This document shows, piece by piece, positions 1,130 through 28,390 of a stretch of 35,194 bases of DNA; within the stretch, counting starts at the first letter, position 1; every line of letters starts with the position of its first letter. The position numbers were made by a program, and so were the translations under genes. Source of the stretch: a virus. Under the pieces are notes generated by a model. That model searched no databases, had not been told where the DNA came from, and saw nothing but the letters and a program-made list of their open reading frames with translations. The stretch covers positions 1-35,194 of IMG/VR virus record IMGVR_UViG_3300045998_000153. The stretch is one strand, 5' to 3'.

Positions 1130-1253
1130 GCTTGCGCCTGGGCTTGGCTCTGCTCCCCCGGCCGTTGCCCTGAGTGGTCTTGTGGTGGACGGGCTCCTTC
1201 TTCTGCCCCTGCATCCAGGTCTTGCCCAGGCCGGTGGTTGTCTTGTTGGCCAT
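1104..1253 (-). CDS. Tiny basic protein, 49 aa, coupled to the tail fibre gene
   Basis: The ATG at 1253 shares its A with the TGA of the upstream fibre gene (TGATG), the junction type used throughout this genome. The product is MANKTTTGLGKTWMQGQKKE followed by a very basic tail rich in Lys, Arg and Gly (KPRRKLRIGQGRA at the end). There is no Cys and no hydrophobic segment. Such a peptide could bind nucleic acid or act as a small virion component, but that is inference. The gene is supported by the coupled start and by filling the gap up to the convergent plus-strand gene. Confidence 0.6.
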   Translation of the reverse strand: MANKTTTGLGKTWMQGQKKEPVHHKTTQGNGRGSRAKPRRKLRIGQGRA

Positions 1254-1675
1254 CAGATGCAACGCACGGAGAAGGTGGAGGGATCGAACTTCACGAGATC
1301 GCCGAACTGGATCTCCGTGACCACGCTCAGCGCATCATGGAACAGGAGGTTGCCGCCGGAGTTGGCGTCCCAGAGAGCGGCATGACTGGCGAAGGCCGAG
1401 CTGCCGTTGACTGCTGAGTTGGTCACGATGACCGCCTGGGTGTTGAGCCGCTCGTAACCGCCGCCGCCGACGGCTGTGACGTTGCCGAGGTCGGCCTGGG
1501 GGATCTGGACGCGGTTGGCGTTGCCGGTGACCGTGGAGGTGATGTTGGCGGCCGAGCCGTCGTCGCCCGGCGTGGCTGAGTGGATGGTGATGAAGAGGCC
1601 CGTGGGGACGGTCGGGAAGGTGGTGCCCTTGACCCAGTCCAGGATCTTGGTGGCCAGGTACTGCGAGAAAGGCAT
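1253..1675 (-). CDS. Gp80-like phage tail fibre protein, 140 aa
   Basis: The start MPFSQYLATKILDWVKGTTF, followed by PTGLFITIHSATPGDDGS, is the signature of a small phage tail fibre family (mycobacteriophage Gp80-like). In this family the N-terminal helix is followed by a short beta-rich domain. The rest is Gly, Asn and Thr-rich beta-type sequence with a WDANSGGNLLFHDAL block and ends LVKFDPSTFSVRCI. It lies directly downstream of two giant adhesin-like tail proteins on the same strand, which fits a distal tail or fibre role. The exact position in the virion is not shown by the sequence. Confidence 0.82.
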   Translation of the reverse strand: MPFSQYLATKILDWVKGTTFPTVPTGLFITIHSATPGDDGSAANITSTVTGNANRVQIPQADLGNVTAVGGGGYERLNTQAVIVTNSAVNGSSAFASHAALWDANSGGNLLFHDALSVVTEIQFGDLVKFDPSTFSVRCI

Positions 1676-1726: not shown

Positions 1727-4700
1727 TCAGGTTGGAGTGCCCCACTTGTCCTGCAGGTAGGCCACAAGGTTGGCCCTGTCGCCGGTGGAAAGTGCGCTCT
1801 GGAAGATCAGGACTTCGCAGATGTCGCCCTTCCAGCCACGGCCAAAGCCGAAGTTATCCCTGTCTGCGCCAAGCCTGATACCGACAGTAGACGAAAACGA
1901 GTTGGCAGGCCTTGCTGCCCTAAGACAGAAAGGAGACGCCAGGTCTGGGAACAAGGTTGATTTTCTGTCTGTAACATCATCTCCGTTGAGGTATGTTGGC
2001 ACAGCAGACCAACCGGTGAACCAGGCACCGGCAGCGCCGGGGTTTAGCACCATCCATCCATCGGATCCAGAGGCAGGGCTGACCAGGCCCTCGTAGTTCG
2101 TGCCCTGGCTTGCACCGAAATCGCCAACGACATAGATCTCTGTCGCTGTCAGTGTAAAGGCCGCTGTCACCATTTGAATAGTGTTATTACTGCCTGGCCA
2201 CCTTGCAGCGGCCAGGCCGTTCATAGCCGCAGCTTGATAGGTCGGCCGATTAGACGGAGTTGCCTGCGTCAAGGTTCTCGCGTTGCCGCTCTTGTCCGTG
2301 ATCTGCGTGATTAGGCCATCATTGGTTGTGACGGTTGCGCCATCCGAGAAGTCCCACCAGACCAAAGGCGAGAGCGAGGCTGGGCTGAATACGGCTTGAC
2401 TTTGGAGGGTGCTGGGCATATCGCCCTCGCCAGTCAGCATGGATGTCAGTACGACCGCCACTTCGGGAGGAGCGGCGCTGAGGGTTGGGCCGGAGGAAGC
2501 CCCCAGATCGCCACGTGCAGTGCCGAACCAGCCCAGGTCGCGAGCGACCAGCACGTCGCCACGCGCAAGGCCCTGGGTGACGCGGATGTCGTCCATGTAG
2601 CCGTTGAACCACTTCAGGTCACCGGCGTTGGCCCCGTCTCTGCCCATCGTGAAGGCGCGATTGGAGAGGGTGACGTTGTTGACGAATGAGACTGCGTCGA
2701 TGGAGTCGTTGATCGCGTAGCGCCAGATTCCAAGGATGTTGCGCGTGAGACGAACATGGCTCCACTGGCCTACTGGGATAGAGGTGGCAGTTGCCCCTTG
2801 GAATTGGCCGTTGATATAGACGTTCAGCCTCATCTGGCTGGTCAGTACGAACATGAAGCCGTTGGTGTAGTTGGCGTTGTCGCCAATGGCGTTCGTGCAG
2901 AACAGGCAGCCTTGAGTCGGGGGGACCGTAAGGGGGAAGACGCTCATCTCCACCGTGAAGTCCCCTTTCGTGCCAGTGCCGAAGGTAAAGAAGGTCGAAC
3001 GACCGCCGGGTTCGCCGAGCGTCAGATAGGCATTGCTGCCTGCGTTGAACCAGAGGCTCTGGCCACCTTGGACGCTTTGCTGGGTGGTCTTGGTGAGGTT
3101 GGAACTGGTGACAGCGATTTGGCGGGGGCCGCTGTCGAGGACTGAGGCGCCCGGGTCGTTGCCACGCAGGTAGAGGACGACGCGATCGAAGTCGGCGTCT
3201 TCCTGGGAGGTTGGCAGTGGCAGCAGCGGGATTCTGGGGGCAAGGGTCGCTTCGGGAAGGGGGTAGTTGCGGGCGACGCCGAGCTTGGTCCACGTGATGG
3301 CGTCATCGGAGTAGAGGAGGTCGAATCCTTTGATGCCGAAAGACCCGGCGCTGACGACCGCCATGCGGATGGAGTCAGCGGTCACCTGTTCGCCAGCGTC
3401 CAGCTGGATCCAGGCTGTGACTTGCTCCATGGTGGAGCGGTTCCAGTTGCAGTTGACTGTGACGCTCTGGTCCTGGGTGCTGGTCAGCAGGCCCGAGGAG
3501 GGGGCCGGAGAGCTGCTGGCCAGGGTGTTGGGGAGGCGAAGGCGGCCTTGGTATAAGCCGAGCTCCGAGAGAGCGAATTGGCCTGAGCCGTCAGTCGAGC
3601 TGGTGCGCAGGTTCACCATGCGCCAGTAGCGAGCAGTTGCCACTGGCGGGCCGAGCAAGGGAGCGGCCGGGGGAGTGAAGGAGGTGAGGTAGAGGGCTCT
3701 GCGCAGAATGCGGACATCGTTCATGTGTCCATGGAAGTAGCCCGAGTCAGCGCCCTCGCTGATGCGGCTGCGAGCGATGCTCCAGTTGGTGGCAGTGAAG
3801 TTGGTGGAGTCGACGAGGGACGAGCCGCCGACAGGGGAGCCGTTCATGTAGAGGGTGATGACTCCAGCGCTGCGCACCAGGGCAATGTGATAGCGGGTAG
3901 CAGCGACCATCGGCTCGCCGTAGATGCGAATGGCTCCATTGAGGTAGAGGCAGAGGCGCCATCCCTGGGCTGCATTGGTGATGCGTAGCTGAACTTGTGG
4001 GTCGATCAGGGCGGTACGAGAATCCAGTAGGGACTGGATGTAAGTTTCGCTTGACCCATTGCCAAGGCGCTGAGCCCAGAGCTCAATGGTGAAGTCGCCA
4101 GAGCCGAGGGACGTAGTAGTGTTGCTGGCGAGATCCAGGTAGTCACCGATACCGTCAAAGTAGCCTTGATTCCCTCCCCATTTGCCCCCAGAAAGCTGCT
4201 GAGCGTTTCCTGCTGGGATGAGGGTGATGTCGTATGGGCCACTGTCAACGAAGTTGATGCCCGATCCGTTCATGCGAGCGAACAGTAGGGTCGCGTCGAA
4301 GTTGTAATCTATGCTTGGCGGGCCAGATTCAGCGGGCTCGGTTCCGGCCGGCAGGGAGAAGGGAGGACCAAAAGAGGAGTATTGGATCGGAGCGTTTCTG
4401 GGCTGGAAGTTTCGGTGGTAACGTGACACGCCGTTGGTGATACGGATGTCTTGCATGTAGCCGTTAAAGTTGCCGACTGGTGCTAACGCGCCAGCGCCTT
4501 GCCCAGCGCTGACAAGCGTTGTGGTGCAGGGGGCGCCAATGATGAATCCCCCTGCGGAGAGATTGACTGGTTGACGCCACCCAGATCCCTGAACCTGGCC
4601 ATTGAGGTAGATGCGCCAAATCTCTTCTTCGCGGCAGATTGCGATGTGGTTCCAGGTATTCAGAGGAACGACTTGAGGGGTGACGGTCCATCCGAGTCGC

Positions 4701-7279
4701 GTGGCGCCATTGGAGTAGATGTAGAGGAATCCCTGCCAATTTATATACAGCATAAAGCTGTTGTTGTGAGCGGCAGGATCACCGAGAGGGCTGTTGTCAA
4801 AGAGGATCTGGTTAAGGCCGAGCGGGTAGACCCATGCTTCGACGGTGAAGTCATCGAAGCCAAGACGGAACGCCTGTGCGTTTGCGTAGGCTATGGCGTC
4901 GCCAGAGCCATCAAACTTGATGGAAGTTGTCGGAAAGTAGCCGCTAATGTCAGGGAACTTAGCTTGCTCTGTAGAGAATTGGACTTGCCCTTGAATCGAG
5001 GCTGGCAGATTGCCGTAGTTGGAGTAGTCGGTGAAGAATGTTGTGGCAATTGGGCCGCTTCCGGGAAGAAGAAAAGTGACGTACTGCTTGTATGGATCGG
5101 GCTCTTTTATGGGTGGCTCTTTCGCTCTGAAGCTGGGATAGGCCGTGGAAAGTCCCCGCTTGATGGTGCTCGAGAAGAGCGACCATGACATGTAAGACGC
5201 ACCATTGATGAGAGTGGGATCCCAGACTGGGTCGACGGCAGAGGCGACGCCTGGCGTGAAGAAGCTGACGGGGCTTACGACGGTCCCGCCGATTTCGTCT
5301 TCTCTCTGGAGTTGATTGTTGTTTCCGATGGTCAAGGCGTTGCCTATCTCTGGTAGGCCGCCTATGGTGACGCTGAAATTGTCTCCGGTAACAGTATTGG
5401 ATGGCATCTTGATTTCAAAGCCTGCCACAACGCAGCCAAGGGCGTTGCTGGCGGGCACGGAAGTGGACATGACGGCCCAATCGCTGTCAGGGTCCATCCA
5501 GTTGCTGGCGGGAGCCTTGAGATTGAATTGATCGATCCTTGCGGGTAAAGATATACTGGTGCGCTGGTAGGTGATGTTGCCTTCTTTATCAAGAGCCAGG
5601 AGCGCATTCGAGGAGCCTACCCAATAAAGAGTCCCTGCGGCGTCGACCTCAAGGCCAGGTGTAGAGTCGCTGACGGAGAATCCGGCTGTGATGCGACGAA
5701 TCGTGAGGTCGGGGTTCAGCTGTAAAAGCGCTCCGGCGGTATTCACGATTGAGACAACGCCGTCGTCGTGAATGACGGCATTGCCGTTGTAGACAGTATT
5801 GGCGCCATTGCCGTATTTGTAGAAATGATAAACATTATCCATCCCGTCATCGACGACAGCTATCCATGTGTAACCTGGCGTGAAGGTCTGCTTGGCCCCG
5901 ACGAGGTAGAGGGTGTCGCCATAGGCCTTGATGGGCAGGCATACACGCATGGAAGAGCCGAATTGACCACCATTCGTCAGAGTGCCGTTAGCAAGGTATC
6001 GAGCCTTCTTGATCTCTCCATCGGCTGGATCAATCCGGAGATAGCCTGGATTGAGGCCATGGGTGTAGGTGAAATGAACTCGATCGTTAATGAGCTTGGC
6101 TTCCTGAACACTGCTTATGTCAACTACATCATTGAAAGGATCGCTTACTGATATTCTGAGAACATAGACCTTTTTCCAGTCAATGGAACCGGTCTTGTTG
6201 ATACGCATGACGTAAATTCCTGCGTCTTGCGGAAAGTTACCAGTAGCGCTTGTCGTTCTTCTGTAGGCGATGACGTCACCATCTGGCAAGGGGATTAGCC
6301 CCCAGCCAAGGAAGTCTCCAAAGTTGGCATCATCGCTGTCGACGAAGATGTCAGTGACTCGGCTCCATAAGACCTCGCCAGTGGGTGATCTGTAGACGAA
6401 GGCAAGTCGCCGCTGACTGACTGGAAAAGTGGCCAGGCAAAGGTAGAAGACTTGATAGCTGTAGTCGTCGGGCGCAAGGCAGGTGTAAGAGACCGTGTTG
6501 TAGTTATTCGATCCTGTTTGGACAAGGGTGTTCAACTTGGAGGCCCATAGTCGCGGCCCCAGGCCGTTGGAAGTCAGTACAGAGCGCAGTCTTCCTCGGC
6601 CGGTCAGGAAGCAGCCGCCGATGGAGCCCAGCGTCTCTCGAATGGAGAGCGTGATGTCAATCTTGCCCCGGCCGGTCAGAGGGGCAATGCCTAGCGGCTT
6701 GTCGCGTCGCCCGGAGAAGAGGCCAGCGCCAGGGCTGCCAAGGCTCCCCCTTCCATCAAGGGATCCTTCCAGCCTGGCGGTGGCAATACGCAGGCGGGTG
6801 ATGGTGCCAAGACCACCACGGCCTCTCAGGGAGGTGTAGAGGCGAGTGGTCGGATTGACTCGTAGCAGCAGTGCGAATGGGGTGGACTGCCACTGCGAGC
6901 AGCTGACGATGACGGTGTATTTGCCAGGTGGAAACTTGGCGATGGACTCGTCGGTGCCAATCGTGTTGGCGATGTCAGTGCCAAAGGCGTTGCCGAGCTC
7001 GTCCAGGGCAATGCTCTGCTTCTCGCTGCGCAGCGCGACGGAGACGAAGCGACTGGTCCAGCGGTTGCCGGTCTCCGTGGTGATCTGGATCGTGGCAGGG
7101 ACGCGCAGGTCAAAGGAGAAGAAGAGGCTCTGGGAGCCGGCCTCCGCGCCGATGTAGCCGCTGATGACGGCTTTGATGTCGGTGATGGGCCCAAGATCCT
7201 TGCTGTCCCTGAGGGAGTCGTAGCGGACCAGCGCTGGGCGATTGAATGAGGTCGCTCGGTCCTCTGGAGGCAGGGGCAT
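1727..7279 (-). CDS. Giant multi-domain tail adhesin with LamG modules, 1850 aa
   Basis: This is probably a distal tail or fibre protein that binds the cell surface. Residues about 30-145 form a domain shared with the 744-aa protein upstream (GTDIANTIGTDES, PPGKYTVIVSCSQWQ, PFALLLRV). Four GRG repeats follow at about 150-232. Residues about 270-625 look like a PQQ/WD-type beta-propeller (repeated LDKEGNIT-like strands). Three LamG-like domains follow at about 735-965, 1005-1175 and 1330-1525, each with a FTVE or FTIE strand, an RxYLNG-type strand and a final FNGYMDDIRVT-like strand. A discoidin-like segment sits near 1185-1310, and a fourth jelly-roll ends in LVAYLQDKWG. No signal peptide is seen. 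The 3500-6500 region is visibly richer in A and T than its flanks, which suggests module exchange. Confidence 0.9.
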   Translation of the reverse strand: MPLPPEDRATSFNRPALVRYDSLRDSKDLGPITDIKAVISGYIGAEAGSQSLFFSFDLRVPATIQITTETGNRWTSRFVSVALRSEKQSIALDELGNAFGTDIANTIGTDESIAKFPPGKYTVIVSCSQWQSTPFALLLRVNPTTRLYTSLRGRGGLGTITRLRIATARLEGSLDGRGSLGSPGAGLFSGRRDKPLGIAPLTGRGKIDITLSIRETLGSIGGCFLTGRGRLRSVLTSNGLGPRLWASKLNTLVQTGSNNYNTVSYTCLAPDDYSYQVFYLCLATFPVSQRRLAFVYRSPTGEVLWSRVTDIFVDSDDANFGDFLGWGLIPLPDGDVIAYRRTTSATGNFPQDAGIYVMRINKTGSIDWKKVYVLRISVSDPFNDVVDISSVQEAKLINDRVHFTYTHGLNPGYLRIDPADGEIKKARYLANGTLTNGGQFGSSMRVCLPIKAYGDTLYLVGAKQTFTPGYTWIAVVDDGMDNVYHFYKYGNGANTVYNGNAVIHDDGVVSIVNTAGALLQLNPDLTIRRITAGFSVSDSTPGLEVDAAGTLYWVGSSNALLALDKEGNITYQRTSISLPARIDQFNLKAPASNWMDPDSDWAVMSTSVPASNALGCVVAGFEIKMPSNTVTGDNFSVTIGGLPEIGNALTIGNNNQLQREDEIGGTVVSPVSFFTPGVASAVDPVWDPTLINGASYMSWSLFSSTIKRGLSTAYPSFRAKEPPIKEPDPYKQYVTFLLPGSGPIATTFFTDYSNYGNLPASIQGQVQFSTEQAKFPDISGYFPTTSIKFDGSGDAIAYANAQAFRLGFDDFTVEAWVYPLGLNQILFDNSPLGDPAAHNNSFMLYINWQGFLYIYSNGATRLGWTVTPQVVPLNTWNHIAICREEEIWRIYLNGQVQGSGWRQPVNLSAGGFIIGAPCTTTLVSAGQGAGALAPVGNFNGYMQDIRITNGVSRYHRNFQPRNAPIQYSSFGPPFSLPAGTEPAESGPPSIDYNFDATLLFARMNGSGINFVDSGPYDITLIPAGNAQQLSGGKWGGNQGYFDGIGDYLDLASNTTTSLGSGDFTIELWAQRLGNGSSETYIQSLLDSRTALIDPQVQLRITNAAQGWRLCLYLNGAIRIYGEPMVAATRYHIALVRSAGVITLYMNGSPVGGSSLVDSTNFTATNWSIARSRISEGADSGYFHGHMNDVRILRRALYLTSFTPPAAPLLGPPVATARYWRMVNLRTSSTDGSGQFALSELGLYQGRLRLPNTLASSSPAPSSGLLTSTQDQSVTVNCNWNRSTMEQVTAWIQLDAGEQVTADSIRMAVVSAGSFGIKGFDLLYSDDAITWTKLGVARNYPLPEATLAPRIPLLPLPTSQEDADFDRVVLYLRGNDPGASVLDSGPRQIAVTSSNLTKTTQQSVQGGQSLWFNAGSNAYLTLGEPGGRSTFFTFGTGTKGDFTVEMSVFPLTVPPTQGCLFCTNAIGDNANYTNGFMFVLTSQMRLNVYINGQFQGATATSIPVGQWSHVRLTRNILGIWRYAINDSIDAVSFVNNVTLSNRAFTMGRDGANAGDLKWFNGYMDDIRVTQGLARGDVLVARDLGWFGTARGDLGASSGPTLSAAPPEVAVVLTSMLTGEGDMPSTLQSQAVFSPASLSPLVWWDFSDGATVTTNDGLITQITDKSGNARTLTQATPSNRPTYQAAAMNGLAAARWPGSNNTIQMVTAAFTLTATEIYVVGDFGASQGTNYEGLVSPASGSDGWMVLNPGAAGAWFTGWSAVPTYLNGDDVTDRKSTLFPDLASPFCLRAARPANSFSSTVGIRLGADRDNFGFGRGWKGDICEVLIFQSALSTGDRANLVAYLQDKWGTPT

Positions 7280-7340
7280 GGATCTCGCTGGGCACCAGGC
7301 GATTGGCCCATTCTGGCAGGCAAGAAGAGATCTACTGGAC

Positions 7341-9575
7341 TCAACTCGAGACGAGAGTGCCCTGAAGGCGACCTTGCCCAGTGCAGAAGGACTGCGGGTA
7401 TTCGTTGACAGGCCTGGAGGAGAGCTTGGTGGGCATGAAGCCTCCCCTTCCGCTGAGTCGGTTGGTGCGATCTCTCACGTCCGATGGGATCCCGCCCGCA
7501 CCGCGCAGACGACAGAGCAGCAGGCGGCGAACGATGGTCAGATCTGAGGTCACGTTGAGCGTGGCGCCCGGCAGGCTTCCTCGTCCATGCAACCTGACGC
7601 GAAGGCACCAGCTCAGGTTGCTCTCTGCCATCGAGCCCTGGCCGTTCATGGTGCTGCGCAGGAGTCTGGGCTGGGAGGCGGAAAGCTCCCCCAGGTAGAG
7701 ACGCCCCTTCCCGCCGAGCGGCCTGGCGACGCCGGGGTTGAGCGCGGCCTTCCCTTGTGTCAAAGGGAAATCGGTGGAGAGGTCTTCGGTGGTGAAGCCC
7801 AGCCCTTGCAGTTTCTCTCGGCAGTAGGTCCCTTGGTTCCAGTCGTAGGCGAGAAGGAGTTTGGGAGATTCGGAACGGAACAGCCGTAGCTCCGGCAGCA
7901 GCAGCCCCTGAGGGGCGAGCGACCAGCGGGGGTCGGCGGACGAAACGCCTGTGCTCGCTTCAGCCGGCAGAGGCCCACTCCACTGTCCGTAGCGGAGCAG
8001 CTGCGCGGCCTGCTCGAGGTAGGCGCCGGCGGCTCCGCCCAGGGCGCGGTAGCCTCCATCGACGTACCAGGGACTGAGATTGGGCAGTCCGTCGGGGCGA
8101 TCCGGCAGCTGGGAGAGGACGAAGGAGGTGGAGAGAGGGTCGTAGTCGTCCTTGGCCCTGATCGCCTCCCAGTCGTTCAGCAGCGTGTAGATCGCCGCAG
8201 AGTTCATCGTGCTGTCAGCCTTCAGCAGGTTGGTCATGCCCAGGCTTTTCAGCAGGCCGCTGACGGTGTCAGTCGGATCAGCGCCAAGGACTCGGTCGCC
8301 CTCTGAAGGCAGCCGCTTCTGAGCAATGAAGTCAGGGTGCAGCACGCGAGCCACTGGAGGGAAGGTGGTCGGGCCCGGCACCCGGATCCCCCGGTCGACG
8401 AGGAATTGGTCCAGGGGAGGGAGGATGACGTCCAGCCGCGCCAGAAGTTCTGTGGGAGGTCTGACGAGCTTGCGGCAGTTGTCTCGATCGACAATGAAGA
8501 CGCTGACGCGACGCCTGTGGGCGAAGGAGCTGCGCTGGTTCGTGACGGTCAGGAGCTGGACGAGTGGGCGGGTGATGTCCACATCTCGAATGATGTCGTT
8601 GTTCCAGACGAGGACTTCCTCGACATGAGCGACGACCATCTGGGAATTCGAGAGCGGCAGGCCCAGCAGGACCTCACGCTGATGCCGTCCGTTGGCGAGA
8701 CGGGCAAAGGGGACCCCGGGCGTGTCGGGGGACTCCTGGGCGCCAGTGATGTTCGGGTTGACTCCGAGCTCGGGGTAGGAAGCGTAGATGCCCTGGCTTC
8801 TGTCGGAGAAGATGACACGCCGCCCTGGCAGCCGGCGGAAGTCTTCAAGGGTCAACCGGGTGGCGATGTAGCCCGGAAAATCGCTGGGCAGGAGTACGGC
8901 AGCAGAAGAGAGGCCGGTGGCAGCGATGATCGTCAGTCGCTCTGGGACCTGGGCTCGACGAGAGAACCAGGCATGGCCGAGGCCCAGGGGCTCCGGTGTC
9001 TCGTAGGCCGGGATGATCTGCAGGCCCATGCGCAGCCGGGCCGAACCGAGCGCGGCGAGAGCGATGGAGATTCGCGGCTGCAGCGAGGCGACCAGTCGTC
9101 CTCGTCCGCTCTGGAAGGTCTCGGGGCGCATCGTGGTGATGCGCTTGCCGACCGCGCCTCTGCCGATCAGCGCGAGGGATGGCGCAGTGCGCGGGAAAAC
9201 CCGAAGGCGGAAGGCGAAGGGGGCTGGCTGCCATTGGCTGGTCGTGATGACGACGGCGTAGTCCCCGGGTGGCAGTCGGCGGAGAGACTCGTCGCCGGCG
9301 GTGTTGGCGATGTCGACCCCGACCGCTCGGCCGTCCTGACCCAGCGCAACCTGCTGGCCGCTGGCGGTTTGGAGGAGGACCTCGATGTAGCGATCGGTGT
9401 ACCTTTCTCGGGGCAGCTGCTCGAGGAAGACTGAGCTGGCAAATGAAAGGGAGAAGGTGGCCAACAGGGTGGCGGATTGGCCTTCACCGCCAATGACCCC
9501 CTCGAAGGACTGGTCGGAATAGCCCAGGGCGCCCAGCGCTTGCCAGGGTGAGCCTCCCCCTGCCGGTGCGGCCAT
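7341..9575 (-). CDS. Tail protein with shared N-domain and GRG repeats, 744 aa
   Basis: This is a likely tail or baseplate-associated structural protein. Its residues about 15-135 are homologous to the N-terminus of the 1850-aa protein downstream (GVDIANTAGDESLRRLPPGDY and SQWQPAPFAFRLRV are the conserved blocks). A GRG element near 139 and another near 157 follow. The middle (about 190-600) is unlike anything I recognise: it contains DSTMNSAAIYTLLNDWEAIRAKDD and several long loops. The C-terminal 140 residues hold a run of degenerate Gly-rich units (NGQGSM, HGRGSLPG, RGAGGIP, SGRGGFMP, TGQGRLQG). It ends 61 bases before the next gene. It probably assembles next to, or in competition with, the 1850-aa protein through the common domain. 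Confidence 0.85.
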   Translation of the reverse strand: MAAPAGGGSPWQALGALGYSDQSFEGVIGGEGQSATLLATFSLSFASSVFLEQLPRERYTDRYIEVLLQTASGQQVALGQDGRAVGVDIANTAGDESLRRLPPGDYAVVITTSQWQPAPFAFRLRVFPRTAPSLALIGRGAVGKRITTMRPETFQSGRGRLVASLQPRISIALAALGSARLRMGLQIIPAYETPEPLGLGHAWFSRRAQVPERLTIIAATGLSSAAVLLPSDFPGYIATRLTLEDFRRLPGRRVIFSDRSQGIYASYPELGVNPNITGAQESPDTPGVPFARLANGRHQREVLLGLPLSNSQMVVAHVEEVLVWNNDIIRDVDITRPLVQLLTVTNQRSSFAHRRRVSVFIVDRDNCRKLVRPPTELLARLDVILPPLDQFLVDRGIRVPGPTTFPPVARVLHPDFIAQKRLPSEGDRVLGADPTDTVSGLLKSLGMTNLLKADSTMNSAAIYTLLNDWEAIRAKDDYDPLSTSFVLSQLPDRPDGLPNLSPWYVDGGYRALGGAAGAYLEQAAQLLRYGQWSGPLPAEASTGVSSADPRWSLAPQGLLLPELRLFRSESPKLLLAYDWNQGTYCREKLQGLGFTTEDLSTDFPLTQGKAALNPGVARPLGGKGRLYLGELSASQPRLLRSTMNGQGSMAESNLSWCLRVRLHGRGSLPGATLNVTSDLTIVRRLLLCRLRGAGGIPSDVRDRTNRLSGRGGFMPTKLSSRPVNEYPQSFCTGQGRLQGTLVSS

Positions 9576-9589
9576 AGCGGGCGATCGTG

Positions 9590-10207
9590 TTACGAGCCAG
9601 CGTAAAAGGTCTGCGTGCCACGCTCTGGTCTGCGCAGCGAGAAGCGCATGGTTGGATGCACCAGTGGCTTGATGGTTTGGATCATGTTCCAGCAGTCACG
9701 GCCATCCCAGGTCAGGTCGATGAACTTGGGGTAGCAGCGACCCCTGGGGCGGGGAACGTGACAGGCGTCGCACCAGTCGTGGATTGGACTCAGGTTGTCC
9801 ACGGGGCCCTTGAGCCTGAGCGCGGCCGTGTTGTACTGCCGGTGCCCGGCATCCATCCAGGCGGCGGCCAGGCCTGGAAGTCCAGCCGCCAGCAGGGCAT
9901 CCTTTGAGAGCCGGTATCGGTCTCGTGGATAGAGAAGCTGGTAGGCCGGCCAGAGTTCTTCGGACTGGATGCGAACACGCACGGTGTCGTAGATGGAGTC
10001 CCCCGGCAGCAGGTCCCAGAGAGCCTTGAGGGTCTGATGGGGGTGCAGTCGTCTGAGGTTGCGGACCTGGTGGTCCAGGTAGGTCTTCTCGGTCTCAGGT
10101 CGACGCAGCTCCAGCCAGAGCCTCTTGCGAGCTCCCCTCAGGCTGAGGGCGCCTTGGGTCGTCAAGCAGTAGGCGATCACACGGTTGGCAAACGGGATCG
10201 CGGTCAT
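9590..10207 (-). CDS. LAGLIDADG-like protein, degenerate, 205 aa
   Basis: The block at residues 78-122 (RVRIQSEELWPAYQLLYPRD, then GLPGLAAAWMDAGHR) matches the second half of a LAGLIDADG DNA endonuclease domain, with D119 at the end of the core helix. The first LAGLIDADG helix would be at 6-22 (ANRVIAYCLTTQGALSL), but the usual acidic residue is absent, so cutting activity is doubtful. A CDAC motif near 146 may bind metal. The ATG at 10207 lies inside the upstream LAGLIDADG-like gene, with a 113-base overlap. It may be an independent homing endonuclease relic or the second half of a frameshifted two-domain enzyme. Confidence 0.65.
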   Translation of the reverse strand: MTAIPFANRVIAYCLTTQGALSLRGARKRLWLELRRPETEKTYLDHQVRNLRRLHPHQTLKALWDLLPGDSIYDTVRVRIQSEELWPAYQLLYPRDRYRLSKDALLAAGLPGLAAAWMDAGHRQYNTAALRLKGPVDNLSPIHDWCDACHVPRPRGRCYPKFIDLTWDGRDCWNMIQTIKPLVHPTMRFSLRRPERGTQTFYAGS

Positions 10208-10802
10208 TGATCAACTGGACGAAGAGGAAGCGGCGTGTCGCAGGGGCGTAGTCGAGCAGGGTCTCTGCAGCTTTGGCGGCATCGTTGCTCTCGATGAACA
10301 GGAAGGGCCTGTCCCGGCGATGGGCGATCTTGCAGACCACGCCCAGGAGGGTCTGCAGCCACTGGGCCAGCAGGAGATACTCCTCGACGTGATGGGCGGC
10401 AGAGCGAATTTCGAGTCCGTTGGGCGTGCGGTGACCGTGGTCGGAGATCAGCCAGGCGGCGGCGCGGGCTCCACAGAGCTCGAGGCAGGAGGAAGAGATG
10501 CGCTTGTGGCCGCGAGGCACGAAGAGGTTGTAGATGGGGCGGAGCTTGTCACTGGAGAGCTTGAAGCGCAGGCCGGGGTAGAGCTTGACGCCGTGTCTGG
10601 TGCGCTTGGGTGTGGTCAAAATGCCCGCCTTGGTAGGGAAGAAACGACGAATTTCGTTCACCTTCTCCTCGAAGTAGGCTGCCTGCCTCTGGGAGCCGCT
10701 CCAGGTGATCTGGACGTAACTCGTTGTAGGGCAACGGATCAGCGCGATACTCCCGGAGGAGAGCAGCACGGAGGAGATCCCGCGAGCCTGGTCTGGCGTC
10801 AT
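10095..10802 (-). CDS. LAGLIDADG-like protein, degenerate, 235 aa
   Basis: Residues 76-125 (LRFKLSSDKLRPIYNLFVPR, RISSSCLELC, GARAAAWLISDHGHR) align position by position with the same part of the downstream 205-aa protein, so the two are paralogues of one LAGLIDADG domain. The first core helix would be ARGISSVLLSSGSIALI at 6-22, with Ser where the catalytic acid normally sits. D121 ends the second helix. The last 35 residues, read from the overlap, are basic and proline-rich and look non-native, which hints at a lost frame. This is the first gene of the minus-strand tail unit. A TAGGAT box lies 22 bases upstream of its ATG. Confidence 0.65.
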   Translation of the reverse strand: MTPDQARGISSVLLSSGSIALIRCPTTSYVQITWSGSQRQAAYFEEKVNEIRRFFPTKAGILTTPKRTRHGVKLYPGLRFKLSSDKLRPIYNLFVPRGHKRISSSCLELCGARAAAWLISDHGHRTPNGLEIRSAAHHVEEYLLLAQWLQTLLGVVCKIAHRRDRPFLFIESNDAAKAAETLLDYAPATRRFLFVQLINDRDPVCQPCDRLLLDDPRRPQPEGSSQEALAGAAST

Positions 10803-10889: not shown

Positions 10890-12032
10890 ATGTGGATTGA
10901 CAACGACTTCCCCAAGCTTCTTGGGATGGAGCTTCACAGGCCCCACCCGAGCTATATCATCGAGGCGGTCTCGGCTCCCCTCGTTGTCTGGGACTACGGC
11001 AAGAGCCCCGGTCAGACGGTGCAGCTTGACCGGTATCGCTTCTGGGGGAATCCCGGAACGAAGGACAGCCGCGAACGGACCGCCGACCAGACCCTTGGCA
11101 CTGCTTCCAGCCGGAACATCGTCAAGGACAAGGTGCTGGTGACCCTCAAGGAGTACACCGGCCCCGCCGACCCTGTCGATCCCTCCGCCCCCAGCACCTT
11201 CAAGGTGGCTCGGGAAACCCTGCTGACCGGCCAGCGCCTGCTGCTGGACTACGGCAACCTGCAGATGTTCCACCAGAGCATCGGCTCGATGACCATGCTC
11301 GACGACTACCGCCGGTGGAAGGACCGTGTCTTCTCCGACGAGCTCTTCAAGGCTGAGTCGAACGGTCAGTCCAGCGTCTCCCAGGGCGGCTACTACTACC
11401 CCGGCGCCAAGACCAAGGCCGGCTCTGCCCCGTTCCTCACCTACTCCGGTGCTGAAACCGGGAAGTTCTCTGTCAAGAACGACCTTCTGCCGGTCGTTCG
11501 GGACATGAACAAGCGCAACGTGCCTCGCTTCGAGGATGGCTTCTACAGGGCCATCGTTGATCCGAGCGCAATGATGCACCTACGCCAGGATTCGGACTTC
11601 CGTGAAATTGCTCGCTACCCGGGCAATGGCATGGTGGATCCGATGAACCCGGCCATGCAGCCCAACGCCAACTTCTTCCTTGGCATGGGCCCGGCCTACG
11701 GTCAGGCCGGCTCCATCAATGGTCAGCAGGTCGGCCCGACCGGCTTCGTCTTCGAAGGCGTGCGCTGGTTCGAGTCCACCAACCTGGCCGCCAAGTCGCT
11801 GCAGGTGAGCATCGCCTCTGCTTCCATCTCCAACGCTGTCACCACGGCAGCTCCGATCCTCTTCTTCGGGCCTCAGTCCGTGGGCGTGGGCATCGGCGGG
11901 AAGGACGCCCAGATCCTCCTCAGCAACGATGATGACTTCGGTCGTTTCATCATCATGGTTTGGAGCCTGTTCGGTGCTTTCGAGCTCCTGAACAAGGACT
12001 TCGTGACCGTGGCCTACTCTTTCGTCTACTGA
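10890..12032 (+). CDS. Probable major capsid protein, 380 aa
   Basis: I call this the major capsid protein from context and pattern. It is the first gene of the virion operon, is followed by a small head-type protein with a near-perfect ribosome binding site, and that pair ends in a strong terminator, the arrangement expected for very abundant proteins. The segment DGFYRAIVDPSAMMHLRQDSD near residues 218-238 matches the P-domain strand typical of HK97-fold and N4gp56-type capsid proteins. The length is normal for the fold, and there is no obvious scaffold or protease segment at the N-terminus. A GGAG stands 11 bases before the ATG. It ends TVAYSFVY. The fold assignment is moderately sure. Confidence 0.78.
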   Translation: MWIDNDFPKLLGMELHRPHPSYIIEAVSAPLVVWDYGKSPGQTVQLDRYRFWGNPGTKDSRERTADQTLGTASSRNIVKDKVLVTLKEYTGPADPVDPSAPSTFKVARETLLTGQRLLLDYGNLQMFHQSIGSMTMLDDYRRWKDRVFSDELFKAESNGQSSVSQGGYYYPGAKTKAGSAPFLTYSGAETGKFSVKNDLLPVVRDMNKRNVPRFEDGFYRAIVDPSAMMHLRQDSDFREIARYPGNGMVDPMNPAMQPNANFFLGMGPAYGQAGSINGQQVGPTGFVFEGVRWFESTNLAAKSLQVSIASASISNAVTTAAPILFFGPQSVGVGIGGKDAQILLSNDDDFGRFIIMVWSLFGAFELLNKDFVTVAYSFVY

Positions 12033-15483: not shown

Positions 15484-17439
15484 ATGGGAAAGCGCAGTCG
15501 CGGCTTCGGGCCGAGCCTGAGCTTTCCGAAGCAGAAGGGGTTCGATTCGGTCACCAGGCCGCAGAAGAGAAAATCGCCTGGCCTCTATCCGGAGGCGGGC
15601 GAAGGTGGCATTCGGGTGCCGACGCTCATCGAGAGCTACAACCGTGAGAGTGATCACTCTCGCTGGCTGCGGGGGATGGAGATCTGGCAGGACACTGCCG
15701 ACGACTCCTGGGTTGAACGCAAGCTTGGCTTGGTGGCGCACCTGAAGACGGGCCCGATCCTCGATGCGATCCCGCTGGTGACCTACCTGTTCCCGGGCAG
15801 GTCGTCGGGGGAATCAGCGTGGCACGTGACGCTCAGGCCACGGGGCGCTCTGACCCTGCCGGCTCCCATCGAAGCCGGCAGCGTGACGCTGGATCGGGGC
15901 GATCCGGATCCGAGCAAGCATCGACTGATCTACAACGTGCGCGGTGTGATCGATCGATCACGGCTGTCGGTGTGGACGTCGCTGATTGGGGACCAGTTCG
16001 AAGACTCCGCCCTGGGCCCGAAGTACCCGGATGACCTGGATCCACAGCCCACGGAGGCGGTGGCCTTCACTCTGGTGGAAGTGGACGTGAGCGGATTCCG
16101 GCTGATCTTCGACCTGTCGCGGCCGTTCGTGCGCCGGATAACGCCATCCCGGCTGTACTGGAAGCTGGGCACCTACAACCCCGGGAATCCGCTGAGGTGG
16201 AGGGACGACGGCTCTCGCCACCTCTGCTCGTCTCATCGGTTCGAGTGCAGCTGCCCCGACTACCAGGGACGACAGGTCGCCAACTTGCAGTCGAGGGAGG
16301 GGGTTTCAGAGAACTTCCCGATGCCGGCGGCGGGGCGGGATCCGGTGAAGGCATGGGAGCGGGAGTCGTTCGGCTACTCGAAGAAGTGGTTCGATCTTGA
16401 CCCCCGGGTGGATCGACGACGGGAGTGCAAGCACATTCATGCGGTCCGCTGGGAGGCGGAGGTCCCGTTTGACGAGCCGAGGGACACGCCGATCAGGAAC
16501 GACCCAGGGCTGATCGATCTGCGCAAGGCAATTGCCAGGGAGAGAGGCTTTGGGGATGTGCGGGACTTCTACGCCAAGCACATGGTCACCTTCGACCTGC
16601 TGCTGCTTGGCGTGGCGCCGGCCGTCGGCTTGCAGCTGGACGCGGATGGAGAGCTCCGGGGGGCAGAGGCGACGTTCAGGCCAGTGAACCGACCGATCCT
16701 CTGGACCGATGAAGAGATGCCGCTTTACTCCTGGTGCCGGCAGAACGACTGGTGGCTGCCTCGAGGGACGGCAGAGGTGTGGCTATTCGATCCGCCCTCT
16801 GGCGGATTTGTTCGCCAGCTGGGCAGCAGAGACGTGCTGGAGATCGTCTCTGTCAACGGTGTGGACGTCGAGATTCCACTGCCCGCCTTCCAGAGAGTGG
16901 CGCGCCTGGGGGTGACTCAGGGCACGCAGGGCCAGCTGCTGCTGAGGATGAGTACCTTGCGGTTCATTCGAGGCAAACTGACAGCTTTCGGCGGCCTCGG
17001 AAAGTCGCGCTTGGTCAAGGATGTCAATATCGCGGCGATCCTGAGCAGCACCGGTGGCCTCAGCGGGACGGTCTACAGCTACCCGGAGGCGAACCTTGGC
17101 GGCACGCTGAGCGGCCAAGGGCGGCTGAGCGGATTGGCGCTGTCGGCGATCAAGCTGCATGCGATCAGCGGGACTGTCACAGGTCAGGGCGGCCTCGGAG
17201 GGTCGACACTGCCCGAGGCAGTTCGGAAGCTCTTGATCGGGCCACTTGTCGGCCAGGGCGGGCTGGGGGAGTCGAGAGTGCGCATCCCGCCTCCGCGCCC
17301 CCTGCTTGGGGCGGTGACCGGCAGAGGCGGGACGGCGGGTACGCTCAGGGCTGCTCCAGCCGTGGACTACTTCGCCGACTGGGCGGTTCAGAACTACGGC
17401 TTCGAGTCCCTGGGCCTCATAGAGTGGTGGGGAAGCTGA
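15484..17439 (+). CDS. Tail-associated protein with SWIM-like zinc motif and GRG/GQG repeats, 651 aa
   Basis: The central part holds C255-S-C257 and C315-K-H317 within FECSCPDYQG and RRECKHIHAVRW, the CxC...CxH arrangement of a SWIM zinc finger, with an unusually long gap of 57 residues. The C-terminal quarter (about 505-630) is a series of Gly-rich units (FGGLGKSRL, SGQGRLSG, TGQGGLGGS, VGQGGLGES, TGRGGTAGT) like those in the 744-aa and 1850-aa proteins on the opposite strand. The N-terminus is basic. SWIM fingers usually bind DNA or protein; here a structural fold held by zinc is equally possible. The protein is certainly coding, and a tail role is inferred from the shared repeats. Confidence 0.82.
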   Translation: MGKRSRGFGPSLSFPKQKGFDSVTRPQKRKSPGLYPEAGEGGIRVPTLIESYNRESDHSRWLRGMEIWQDTADDSWVERKLGLVAHLKTGPILDAIPLVTYLFPGRSSGESAWHVTLRPRGALTLPAPIEAGSVTLDRGDPDPSKHRLIYNVRGVIDRSRLSVWTSLIGDQFEDSALGPKYPDDLDPQPTEAVAFTLVEVDVSGFRLIFDLSRPFVRRITPSRLYWKLGTYNPGNPLRWRDDGSRHLCSSHRFECSCPDYQGRQVANLQSREGVSENFPMPAAGRDPVKAWERESFGYSKKWFDLDPRVDRRRECKHIHAVRWEAEVPFDEPRDTPIRNDPGLIDLRKAIARERGFGDVRDFYAKHMVTFDLLLLGVAPAVGLQLDADGELRGAEATFRPVNRPILWTDEEMPLYSWCRQNDWWLPRGTAEVWLFDPPSGGFVRQLGSRDVLEIVSVNGVDVEIPLPAFQRVARLGVTQGTQGQLLLRMSTLRFIRGKLTAFGGLGKSRLVKDVNIAAILSSTGGLSGTVYSYPEANLGGTLSGQGRLSGLALSAIKLHAISGTVTGQGGLGGSTLPEAVRKLLIGPLVGQGGLGESRVRIPPPRPLLGAVTGRGGTAGTLRAAPAVDYFADWAVQNYGFESLGLIEWWGS

Positions 17440-17445
17440 AGATTT

Positions 17446-17805
17446 ATGCCTGCACCCAACCTTCGAGATCCGGCAACCGTCACAGGTAAGACGGCTGTGT
17501 ACGTTGTGACGAACGCGATGGGCACAGTGCTGTCGAACCCGGGCGCCAGTGGCAAGGTGATGCGGGTCAACTCGGTTTACTGCGCGAATATTGACGCAAA
17601 CCTGTTGGATGAGATCACATTGGTATTGACTCGTGGAGGAGTGAACTACCGTCTTGCCAGTGCGATGACCGTACCGGCAAGGGCAACGCAAGTCCTGGTG
17701 GCGCGTGAAGCGTATATTTATTTGGAAGAGGGGGACTCGCTGCAAGCTCAGGCTCTGACCAATAATCGTTTTGAGATTGTTGTTGGATACGAGGAGATAG
17801 CCTGA
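17446..17805 (+). CDS. Conserved small virion protein, 119 aa
   Basis: The start MPAPNLRDPATVTGKTAVYV and the end of the YEEIA type match a small structural protein that I know from cyanobacterial phages. There it occurs next to fibre genes with a beta-sandwich-like pattern (GKVMRVNSVYCANID, VPARATQVLVAREAYIYLEE). Its biochemical function is not established. It is coupled to the downstream LamG fibre gene by a TGATG junction, so the two may be made in equal amounts and assemble together. Confidence 0.8.
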   Translation: MPAPNLRDPATVTGKTAVYVVTNAMGTVLSNPGASGKVMRVNSVYCANIDANLLDEITLVLTRGGVNYRLASAMTVPARATQVLVAREAYIYLEEGDSLQAQALTNNRFEIVVGYEEIA

Positions 17806-18542
17806 TGCTTGGATTTAATGGGGGGCTGATTGGAGCCGCTCGAGGCAAACCTGAACCGTACAACGGCTCAGGCTTATGGCTGCCGAATGAGCAGGGCCTG
17901 CTCAGGCGCAGTGGTACTTGGCCAATGGGCAATGATCCCTTTGCCGATGATGTGGTCCTCCTGTTGATGATGGAGGGAGAAGACGGTTCGACGACTTTTA
18001 TAGACACAGGAACCGGAGCGAGGACGATAACCAGGTCAGGAACCTGCGTTATCAGCACCGCAGAGAAGTATTCTGGGTCTTCTAGTTATTTGGGGAATGT
18101 AAATTCAAGACTGGATTTTCCCGAGGTAGTATTTCCTGGGGATTTTACCGTAGAGATGTTTCTCAGGGCTACGTCGTTGAGTGGTATACGAGCGTTCACG
18201 GGACATACGGGAGGGAACAGGCAGATGCGATTGTCCCCAAACCTTTTCGTGTATTATGATGGGGCTTCTATCTGCAACAGAACGCCTACTCAAGGAGCGC
18301 CTCTGATAGACACTTGGTATCATTTTGCCTGGACGAGAGAAGGGACGTTGCATAGGGTCTTTTGGAATGGAGTGGAGCAGTCATCTCTTGCACTGGGAGG
18401 CAACATTGCGCTAAATGTTATCGGTGCCGGCTACGTGGGCGGCAACCAGTGGCCAGGGTATATCGATGCAGTGCGTTTTACGGCTGCTTGTCGTTATACG
18501 GAAGACTTTGAAATGCCAGATGGAGTATGGATTGCGCCATAA
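17805..18542 (+). CDS. LamG-domain tail fibre protein, 245 aa
   Basis: The N-terminal 40 residues (MLGFNGGLIGAARGKPEP, SGLWLPNEQGLLRRSGTWP) form a conserved virion-anchoring head that I associate with cyanobacterial phage fibres. From about residue 48 the protein is one LamG jelly-roll: a DDVVLLLMMEGEDGS start, FTVEMFLRATS, the HFAWTREGTLHRVFWNG strand pair, and the closing PGYIDAVRFTAACRYTEDF. The anchor is GC-rich like the rest of the genome while the LamG part is clearly richer in A and T, which suggests that the binding domain was exchanged. It is the last gene of the virion unit, and its end overlaps the convergent gene by 49 bases. Confidence 0.88.
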   Translation: MLGFNGGLIGAARGKPEPYNGSGLWLPNEQGLLRRSGTWPMGNDPFADDVVLLLMMEGEDGSTTFIDTGTGARTITRSGTCVISTAEKYSGSSSYLGNVNSRLDFPEVVFPGDFTVEMFLRATSLSGIRAFTGHTGGNRQMRLSPNLFVYYDGASICNRTPTQGAPLIDTWYHFAWTREGTLHRVFWNGVEQSSLALGGNIALNVIGAGYVGGNQWPGYIDAVRFTAACRYTEDFEMPDGVWIAP

Positions 18543-24955: not shown

Positions 24956-27900
24956 TCAGCCGGCGGGGCTGGCCAGAGGCATCAGGCATTTGTCGCTGTC
25001 ACATCCGGCGGGCCCCTGCGGCTGCTCCGGCGCCCGCGACCCAGCGTCTCGGTCGGTGAGGGCCTGGTAGAAGTCGTCCTGGACGCGACGTTTCAGGACT
25101 TCGGCGCACATCTCCTCGTAGGTCGCCCGGTCGATCGACTCGAACGGCATGCGGGGGTAGGTGTGCTTGTCGTCCATCCGGGCCAGCAGGGCTGCAGAGA
25201 TGTAGCCCTGGTTGGTCGTGATCGCGGCGTGGATGGCCCGGGCCAGTGGGCGGATCTCCTCCTTGCTCAGCTCGATGGTGGCCGAGGTGTTGTGGCCGGA
25301 GTAGTGGTGCTGGACCCTCATGTAGAAGTCGAATTGCGCCAGGGCGCTGAACTTCGAGGGGTCGACCTCGTCGGCATGGGGCAGGTCGTGCCAGGGCACG
25401 GCGGTGGGGATCTCCACCAGCCACTCGGTGCAGCGAGGATCCCAGGGGTCATCGAGTAGCCGGCCGTTCTCGTCCTTGTCGGACTGGGAGGGGACCACGT
25501 TGTAGCCGTAGTCGATGCAGGCAAGGGCGATGGGATCTTCTCGGGCGAAGGTGATTCGACGGATGTAGTAGACGGCCTTGGGCGGGTGCCAGCCGGGAGA
25601 GGCGTTGGTCAGCAGGGACTTGGAGTTGTGTGAGATCAGGGCGCCGTTGAAGTACCAGGCTTCGTTGTCGCTGTCGGTGTCCAGGGTGATGTCAGAGGTG
25701 ATGGGGGCGTAGCAGGGGCCGATGTCTACGATCTGAAAGGGACTGGTCCTGTCGTGGCACCTCATGCTCTGCAGTGGGGCCAAGCTCAGGCTGCTGCGGT
25801 GGTTCAGGTAGTTGATGGCGTAGCTGGTGGAGTGGCCTTTGGCCAGCCTGAGGGACCGGCGGCGGTTGACGATCTTGCTGATGAAGACCAGGCCGATTGC
25901 CTCGCCGACCTCCTGGACGTGAGCGACGGTGTCCGGATGCCATTCGTCGACGTCGACGTAGAGCATCTCGGAGGTTCCGATGGTCAGCCTGGCGCCGTCG
26001 ATGATGCCGCAGAAGAAGGCGAGGAGATCTTCCCGGCAGGCGAGGCGGAAGGGGAGGGGGATCGGAGTGAAGTGATCGGAGAGGAAACGGCTCCTGAGCC
26101 CGTTGCGGTCCAGCCAGTCCTCAGCTGCGGCGACGTCGATGGTCACTCTGGTGCGGCACTTGAGGCGATGGGGCTTGGCGAAGTTGGGGCCGAACGCCGC
26201 GTTGGCCACTTCCACGAGTCGATGGAAGTAGCTGTCGGCGCGAGCGCCGGTGATGAATGTCCCCATGGAATCAGTCCCTCGAGCAGCAGCCAGGAAGCCC
26301 ATGACGTAGGCCAGGTCTTCGCTGACGTGGCTGAGCTCAGGGCGGGAGTAGTGGGGAAGTGGCTCCAACGGGACTGAGGCGTGGGGGTTGGTGTAGGAGC
26401 CTGGGCTGAACTGGAGCTCCGTTTCAGCGCTCAGCTCGTCAGCCCGGATCCAGCCCGTGCCTCCCCCTGGTCCCGGGAGCACCTCCTTGAAGCGGTGGTC
26501 GGGGGTGACGCGAAGCTTGCGACCGCTGTAGAAGGTGATCTCGGTGAGGGGGCCAAGGCTCTCTCCTTCGTAGCGGTGGTGGTTTTCGACGATCCCAGCG
26601 ATGGGCATGTTGCGGACCTTGGCGGACCCTGTGAACGGGGCCCAACGCTTGAGCTCGTTGGAGGCGCCGGCGAGCTCATCGATCAGGTAGAGGCCGTTGT
26701 CGCAGACGCGCAGGGCTTCGGGCGTGAGGCAGCCGGCGGGTTGCACGGTGGTGGATCGGTTGGGGATCCGCAAGCCGTTCTTGGTGCAGTAGTCGGCGAC
26801 CTCGGACTCGACGATCTGGCGGAAGCGGGCCAGGTGTTTTTCTTCTTCGCAGGTGAAGCGAAGGCCCTCGGTGGAGGGCGGCCGGCCCTCTTGCCACCAG
26901 TCGAGCCATTCGGAGCCGAAGGCCCGGGCGAAGTAGTCGAACAGGCCGGTGAAGCTGACACCGACGATGGGGTCGATCGAGCGGGAGTAGCGGAAGCGGT
27001 CGTCCCTGAAGGTGTGGTGCAGGAGGACGGCGACGGTCAGAGCTGCTGCGCGGAAGGCAGAGTCGACTTCATCGTGATCGTCGGGATCAAGCTGGTTCAG
27101 GTGAACCTCAGCGAGGTTGCACATGAAGTCATTGCCTATGATCTCTCCACAAGGATTAAGGCCATACCTTTTCATCCTGTGGTCCAGATCTCGCTGGTCG
27201 TCGACGGAGGCCATGCCAGGGTCCTTGATGCCACAGAGGGCCAGGGAGAGCACTTCCTTGCCGGCGGCGAGGCCGCCTTCTTCGATGGCATCGAGGAACT
27301 GCTTGCGGAGCCATTCGGTGGAAAGGATGTCGCAGTTGGCGCGTGCCAGGGCCTCAGGGGCGTACTGGATGGCGCCTTCGCCAGATTCGTACTGAGACTT
27401 GACGGACTCGAGGACCTCGTCGAAGGAAGGTGCGAACGTGAAGACCCGGGTGTGATTGGCCATGCGCAGTGCGTCGCGCTCGTGATCGATGGTCCAGTTG
27501 CTGTCTTCGTCCTGAACCCACAGATTGGTCTTGGCGCCAGCAGCGTCTTCGTCGTAGGGGTCGAACTGCCGCATGCCGGCGGATCTGCGGATGTTCCCTG
27601 CGACCACGCAACGAGCCGCTTCATCGATGATCAAGCAGGCCTCCAGGGAATTGAGCTTGCGACCCACAGCCTTGTTCAGGATGTTTGCGACCCGCCCGTA
27701 CATTTCCTTCAACACGGCTGGGTTGGCGGTACCGCCGAAGCCCTTGAGTCTCTCGCCGGCAGGCCTGACCCAGGAGAGGTCGATGGTGACGTGCAGGCGG
27801 CCGTCGGCGAGCAGGGGATCGCAAGCCGCTTCGAGCAGTCGTTGGTAGCTGTCGACCCACCCCTTGCGAGAATCGCCCACCTTGATCTCCATGTGACCGC

Positions 27901-28390
27901 GATTGGTCATAGTCGTCATGGTGGCCTCGGCACGGCGCTCCGGCGGGGTTGCGCCGATCTCGCCGCGATGGGTGATGGTGATCCCGTTGACGATGGTCGG
28001 CAGCTTCTGGAGGTTTTCGATTGTCAGGACAGCGCCGGTGCCGGTGCCCTGCATCGCCAGGTTCATGAGCGTGGCGAAGTCAGAAAGCTCATGAATGGCG
28101 CGGGAGCTGCAGTTGTAGCTGCCGTAGAAGTTGCGAGGATCGTCGGACCAGGGAGTGCCGCCAACCCACAGCCAGCGACCACTGGGCAGGGCTGTGAGAT
28201 TCTCCTGGTGACGACGCAGCAGGAGGAGCTGCTCTTCGGTGAGGTCGCCCAGCCTGGCAAGGCCACCAAGGTTGCGATCGATGACTTCCTTCCAGCTCTC
28301 GCGGGAGCCATCGTCTTTGCGGCGGGAGTAGGAACGGAAGAAGAGGGGGAGCGCGGAGGGCGCGTGAACGGGGAACTCGGAGGCGGTCAT
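24956..28390 (-). CDS. nrdJ: Class II (B12-dependent) ribonucleotide reductase with intein, 1144 aa
   Basis: This is a monomeric adenosylcobalamin-dependent ribonucleoside-triphosphate reductase that makes dNTPs in the cytoplasm without oxygen dependence. C94 in SYNCSS and C424 are the expected redox pair, LNPCGEI at 411-417 carries the radical Cys C414 and E416, and the C-terminal pair C1130 and C1135 is the thiol shuttle. An intein of 369 residues (554-922) interrupts the conserved VQPAG/SKSLLTNASPGWHPP site, leaving a mature enzyme of about 775 aa, close to the family length. It is convergent with the Lar gene and heads its own unit, with a TAGGTT box 22 bases upstream. Confidence 0.96.
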   Translation of the reverse strand: MTASEFPVHAPSALPLFFRSYSRRKDDGSRESWKEVIDRNLGGLARLGDLTEEQLLLLRRHQENLTALPSGRWLWVGGTPWSDDPRNFYGSYNCSSRAIHELSDFATLMNLAMQGTGTGAVLTIENLQKLPTIVNGITITHRGEIGATPPERRAEATMTTMTNRGHMEIKVGDSRKGWVDSYQRLLEAACDPLLADGRLHVTIDLSWVRPAGERLKGFGGTANPAVLKEMYGRVANILNKAVGRKLNSLEACLIIDEAARCVVAGNIRRSAGMRQFDPYDEDAAGAKTNLWVQDEDSNWTIDHERDALRMANHTRVFTFAPSFDEVLESVKSQYESGEGAIQYAPEALARANCDILSTEWLRKQFLDAIEEGGLAAGKEVLSLALCGIKDPGMASVDDQRDLDHRMKRYGLNPCGEIIGNDFMCNLAEVHLNQLDPDDHDEVDSAFRAAALTVAVLLHHTFRDDRFRYSRSIDPIVGVSFTGLFDYFARAFGSEWLDWWQEGRPPSTEGLRFTCEEEKHLARFRQIVESEVADYCTKNGLRIPNRSTTVQPAGCLTPEALRVCDNGLYLIDELAGASNELKRWAPFTGSAKVRNMPIAGIVENHHRYEGESLGPLTEITFYSGRKLRVTPDHRFKEVLPGPGGGTGWIRADELSAETELQFSPGSYTNPHASVPLEPLPHYSRPELSHVSEDLAYVMGFLAAARGTDSMGTFITGARADSYFHRLVEVANAAFGPNFAKPHRLKCRTRVTIDVAAAEDWLDRNGLRSRFLSDHFTPIPLPFRLACREDLLAFFCGIIDGARLTIGTSEMLYVDVDEWHPDTVAHVQEVGEAIGLVFISKIVNRRRSLRLAKGHSTSYAINYLNHRSSLSLAPLQSMRCHDRTSPFQIVDIGPCYAPITSDITLDTDSDNEAWYFNGALISHNSKSLLTNASPGWHPPKAVYYIRRITFAREDPIALACIDYGYNVVPSQSDKDENGRLLDDPWDPRCTEWLVEIPTAVPWHDLPHADEVDPSKFSALAQFDFYMRVQHHYSGHNTSATIELSKEEIRPLARAIHAAITTNQGYISAALLARMDDKHTYPRMPFESIDRATYEEMCAEVLKRRVQDDFYQALTDRDAGSRAPEQPQGPAGCDSDKCLMPLASPAG
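25625..26731 (-). mobile_element. Intein with degenerate LAGLIDADG domain inside nrdJ
   Basis: The insert runs from C554 to N922 of the host protein. Its splicing motifs are complete: C554 at the N-junction, the block B histidine in LRVTPDHRF (H632), H921-N922 at the end and S923 as the +1 residue. Two LAGLIDADG helices are seen at about 693-706 (LAYVMGFLAAARGT) and 789-804 (LLAFFCGIIDGARLTI). The first lacks the acidic residue at its usual place, so homing may be lost while splicing is kept. No frameshift is present, and base composition matches the host gene. Confidence 0.92.

Follow-up and report, generated by a model that had tools for sequence, protein, structure and literature searches.

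A homologous N-terminal domain in front of unrelated bodies in two neighbouring proteins of a probable S-EIV1-like cyanophage

Two neighbouring genes on the minus strand of a 35,194-nucleotide IMG/VR virus record (the window, that is, the whole stretch of DNA analysed) encode large proteins that begin alike and then differ, which raises the question of what one N-terminal domain does in front of two different bodies. A preliminary description had called both products giant tail proteins, sharing a virion-docking domain that would let one tail carry two adhesins or choose between them.

A common N-terminal domain and its predicted fold

Open reading frames of 744 aa (protein A, 7341..9575, minus strand) and 1850 aa (protein B, 1727..7279, minus strand) were found as neighbours on the minus strand. 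BLASTP of A against B gave a single significant segment, spanning residues 25-161 of A and 40-180 of B, with 59 of 142 positions identical (42%) and an E-value of 7e-25. Smith-Waterman alignment of the N-termini scored 247, far above 500 shuffles (mean 32, maximum 59). The remainders scored 54, a value that shuffles also reach (mean 45, maximum 68), and the bodies of A and B are therefore unrelated. On these points the preliminary description was borne out, and the motifs that it quoted were found and aligned in both proteins; the domain has a conserved SQWQxxPF hairpin. The shared domain was placed at approximately residues 8-131 of A (9183..9554, minus strand), from BLASTP with B, the AlphaFold2 model and its fold match, and at approximately residues 32-147 of B (6839..7186, minus strand), from BLASTP with A and its high identity across lineages.

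GxG repeats stand behind the domain in both proteins, as had also been described, at about residues 132-190 of A (9006..9182, minus strand) and 148-245 of B (6545..6838, minus strand), four of those in B lying directly behind the domain. The repeats are not confined to the ends beside the shared domain, since six more were located at the C-terminus of A (7344..7745, minus strand). All were delimited by motif counts compared with shuffled sequences, with 8 GxGx[LIMVF] motifs in A (shuffle mean 0.9, maximum 4) and 9 in B (shuffle mean 2.5, maximum 7). A 651-aa protein encoded at 15484-17439 on the plus strand carries three C-terminal GxG repeats resembling those of A and B; its count in the window alone is within shuffles, and the orthologues in contigs L003 and L004 are clearer, with runs of five.

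A first AlphaFold2 model of A, built from two sequences, had a low pLDDT of 64.5 and no significant fold matches. A second run modelled A from an alignment of 11 sequences and was reliable for the domain alone: residues 11-130 reached pLDDT 78-89 in most blocks, with residues 81-100 at 42-59, and A outside residues 11-130 was mostly below 50. This profile predicts that the domain folds as a unit bounded near residue 130. The predicted model is, with confidence, a beta-sandwich with a fold of the PPC/collagen-binding-domain type. The best Foldseek matches were the ColG collagen-binding domain (1nqj, E-value 5e-5) and a pre-peptidase C-terminal domain (5sv5, E-value 6e-5), both at a probability of 1.00 and an rmsd of about 5 Å, with TM-scores by target of 0.53-0.61; the PliG inhibitor 4dxz also matched (E-value 8e-5), and with it the TM-scores span 0.53-0.62. 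Lower matches included the receptor-binding part of a clostridial enterotoxin, from which nothing was concluded, as only the topology was alike at 7-10% identity. Against a viral fold library, none of the domain's named matches was convincing. PPC membership by sequence was rejected, as the PPC profile (PF04151) did not match the domains at E-values up to 10; a PPC family search of three relatives found none, and controls were found. Because a PPC-like fold is predicted but the Pfam model is unmatched, we call the domain PPC-like and not a PPC member.

Domains of the PPC and collagen-binding types are better known for binding ligands, or as accessory parts of secreted enzymes, and this argues against docking as the role of the shared domain. 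The same fold matches, to collagen-binding domains, pre-peptidase C-terminal domains and the PliG lysozyme inhibitor, favour a different reading, in which the domain would be a ligand-binding module for a host polysaccharide or envelope component, docking would be provided elsewhere, and the domain would have been retained since both proteins touch the cell surface.

Source virus, distribution and age of the duplication

The window most likely belongs to an S-EIV1-like cyanophage. The major capsid protein gene (10890..12032, plus strand; family phrog_1357) is the first gene of an operon divergent from A and B, and the only match to its product among the phage records was a protein of Synechococcus phage S-EIV1 (61% identity). 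Five of the genes after the capsid gene match S-EIV1 genes by profile, with their order kept, and the nearest enzymes to the class II ribonucleotide reductase of the window are those of cyanophages. The homologous capsid gene followed by the same gene order, together with the cyanophage-type reductase, therefore most probably places the window among the S-EIV1-like phages. S-EIV1, listed as a podovirus (PMC9382816), is the only cultured relative, linked via the capsid and neck genes. The likeness lies in the capsid protein and in the related, order-conserved genes after it, and the difference lies in A, B and the shared domain, no relative of which was found when S-EIV1 (KJ410740) was searched.

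Two further features of the window were observed. The ribonucleotide reductase (24956-28390, minus strand, 1144 aa) contains a 369-aa intein-like insert at residues 554-922, bounded by a Cys and by an HN/S junction; the reductase frame of a relative (L047:12107-16558) is 1483 aa long compared with 1144 aa in the window, possibly through a larger or extra insert. Upstream of A are two overlapping neighbours on the minus strand, 9590-10207 and 10095-10802, both LAGLIDADG_2-like: the latter matched the Pfam family at 1.4e-8, a relative of the former gave a weak match, and hhalign of the two families gave a probability of 94.7 and an E-value of 5.8e-8. This pair is conserved in all lineages, and the acidic residue expected of the first LAGLIDADG motif, whose position was assigned by eye, is lacking throughout, which suggests that the pair is catalytically dead; the two proteins may perhaps be regulators.

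Domain scans covered IMG/VR, phage records and GTDB. Pfam and PHROGs held no sequence relative of the shared domain above cut-off, neither the domain nor A had a relative among 50,697 phage records, and the GTDB scan with the domain confirmed no genome. An extra pattern match for the domain in contig L041 was rejected as chance. In IMG/VR, one small set of contigs came up whether the query was the domain, whole A or the A body, and it comprises three lineages besides the window: L003; L004-L008 and L026, with L009 (B only); and L019-L021. In two of these, L009 and L026, the region is truncated by the end of the contig. Judged by sequence, the domain family is new, and it is confined to this phage group in the collections searched.

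All contigs that cover the region, from four lineages including the window, have A and B adjacent in the same order and on the same strand, and each sufficiently long contig holds exactly two copies of the domain. In the domain tree, a branch with 100/99 support separates all A-type from all B-type copies; the duplication therefore predates the split of the lineages, and both copies were kept. No trace of conversion between A-type and B-type copies was seen in the tree. A and B are thus most likely old paralogues that arose by gene duplication. The B frame in L019 (G008:C1:2191-6963) has one in-frame TAG, which is absent from the otherwise matching G009 and G010.

This constancy bears on the earlier proposal that the phage chooses between the two proteins, which finds no support in the contigs. 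A common domain with different bodies would suit a pair of alternative genes, the phage switching between two adhesins on a shared dock, but both genes are intact, with constant strand and order, in all contigs that have both, promoter- and terminator-like patterns are few and at chance level, and the body of A is not adhesin-like. With neither gene ever missing from these contigs, it is highly improbable that the phage switches between them.

A modular protein B and a constant protein A

Behind the repeats of B lies a fast-evolving region without a Pfam match (about residues 246-700; 5180..6544, minus strand). It is followed on the minus strand by a first LamG-like stretch (about residues 725-969; 4373..5107; PHROG 24074/3545 and Laminin_G_3), a second Laminin_G_3 domain (residues 1043-1196; 3692..4153; Pfam), an F5/8 type C-like (discoidin) stretch (residues 1278-1335; 3275..3448; Pfam), which is below the Pfam cut-off in the window and above it in one relative, and a third LamG-like stretch (about residues 1379-1569; 2573..3145; PHROG and Pfam families). 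Laminin_G_3 was found at 6.7e-41 in three stretches, and B also matches virion-structural and baseplate families. Across lineages, the domain of B is 68-72% identical and the repeats 56-67%; identity is only 33-37% over residues 246-700, and the LamG and F5/8C part stands at 50-60%. The common core of B ends near residue 1592, and its C-terminus differs by lineage: the window has an exchangeable module of the phrog_10356 type (residues 1628-1847; 1739..2398, minus strand), the L004 group has a different module, and in L003 and L020 the protein stops soon after the core. A second LamG-type protein, encoded at 17805-18542 on the plus strand, matches the PHROG families of B's LamG part.

The gene after B (1253..1675, minus strand) encodes a 140-aa homologue of the fibre I protein gp80 of podophage GP4 (PF23140, 3.5e-22; PDB 8jou, 4.8e-9), a virion protein of GP4 with a solved structure. 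The homologue is found in this position in 3 of the 4 lineages (the window, L003 and L020), and the L004 group has ORFs of 305, 1100, 507 and 145 aa after B in its place.

B has the look of a modular adhesin, both in its domains, which include carbohydrate-binding modules, and in its pattern of variation, with a distal part that varies. The shared domain of B is conserved far above the region behind it, which is the expectation for a docking domain before a recognition part. This also bears on the reading of the domain as a ligand-binding module. The LamG and F5/8C parts do mark B as a surface-binding protein, in line with that reading, but the domain is N-terminal in both proteins and is the most conserved part of B, unlike recognition parts, and we regard a ligand-binding role as decidedly unlikely.

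Protein A presents another pattern. Its body (about residues 191-610; 7746..9005, minus strand), for which the AlphaFold2 model was unreliable, has no known homologue: no Pfam or PHROG family matched, and a scan with the middle alone recovered the same contigs and no other proteins. Full-length orthologues in other contigs are 51-54% identical and nearly constant in length, and the domain (47-55%) and the body (55-57%) are about equally conserved between lineages. That the domain of A is no more conserved than the body argues against a plain anchor-plus-adhesin prediction. Neither carbohydrate-binding modules nor a variable distal part were found in A, which is more likely a structural or enzymatic constant partner than a variable adhesin. 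Of the preliminary description, one homologous domain with different bodies behind it stands, but only the body of B looks like a binding part. The term adhesin suits B, with its LamG domains, variable middle and exchanged C-terminus, and not A, with its even conservation and lack of a family match; likewise, the inference of a giant tail protein is supported for B and is indirect for A.

The even conservation of A, and its constant place directly upstream of B, would also be in keeping with an anchor-branch arrangement, in which a constant A sits on the tail and B is mounted on A through contact between the two homologous domains, so that they would not compete for the same site. Such systems are known in phages with two receptor-binding proteins (PMC6872550). 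In Pfam and PHROGs, neither A nor B matched a T4 gp10-like branching domain, and equivalent sites are the simpler reading of homologous domains; we consider this arrangement unlikely.

Proposed role of the shared domain and comparison with known systems

The reading that we favour, with modest confidence, is that an old tandem duplication gave two proteins with a common virion-side assembly module, B serving recognition and A being its constant partner, both in each virion. A tandem duplication within the host-attachment gene cluster would have produced A and B with a common beta-sandwich and GxG-repeat linker and unrelated bodies. The shared domain likely docks to the virion, and would hold A and B on the tail or bind them to one another; the repeats would form a stalk, with the bodies pointing outward. 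Recognition would be carried out by the LamG-type lectin domains of B, its fast-changing middle and its exchanged C-terminal tip. A would be a structural or enzymatic component, not a second adhesin, and would be present together with B in each virion.

The homologous domains, their constant pairing, the conservation gradient in B and the fibre-type gene context with the gp80 homologue next door favour this reading, as do the capsid gene at the head of the divergent operon and the precedent of phage CBA120. Against docking stand the absence of the domain from S-EIV1 and its lack of relation to known tail anchors, as no sequence link to a known tail-anchor domain was found in Pfam, PHROGs or the 50,697 phage records. 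We propose only tentatively that the PPC-fold domain may be a new type of fibre anchor, one that would hold the constant A and the variable adhesin B in an obligate mixed fibre.

The S-EIV1-like phages are an almost unstudied lineage, and their structural proteins are mostly without annotation. The shared domain provides a marker domain for these phages, the analysis names a likely adhesin (B) and its constant partner (A), and the pair of domains is defined material for studies of fibre mounting.

The predicted fold of the shared domain is that of the PPC/collagen-binding domains (PF04151; 1nqj, 5sv5), which differ in being C-terminal in secreted proteases and in matching the Pfam model; in the phage proteins the domain is N-terminal. 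In the two-receptor-binding-protein systems of Klebsiella, G7C and K1-5 type phages (PMC6872550), two fibre-class proteins with N-terminal structural domains are likewise encoded in one region. Those systems use a T7-fibre-like anchor and the T4 gp10-like branching domain, neither of which matched in A or B. A close parallel in gene arrangement is with the tail spikes of phage CBA120 (ORF210, ORF212 and ORF213), where neighbouring genes have a near-common N-terminus and diverged remainders: the first 163 aa of ORF210 and ORF212 are common, and several such spike proteins per virion have been proposed (PMC3184105). A and B show the same combination of neighbouring genes, homologous N-termini and unrelated remainders. 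The CBA120 spikes differ in having another N-terminal domain, for which no sequence relation to the shared domain was found, and in being endosialidase-related, whereas here B has LamG and F5/8C modules and A a body without a known homologue. Other phages already show the design of different bodies behind a common N-terminal module, and the sequence family of the domain that serves it here is new.
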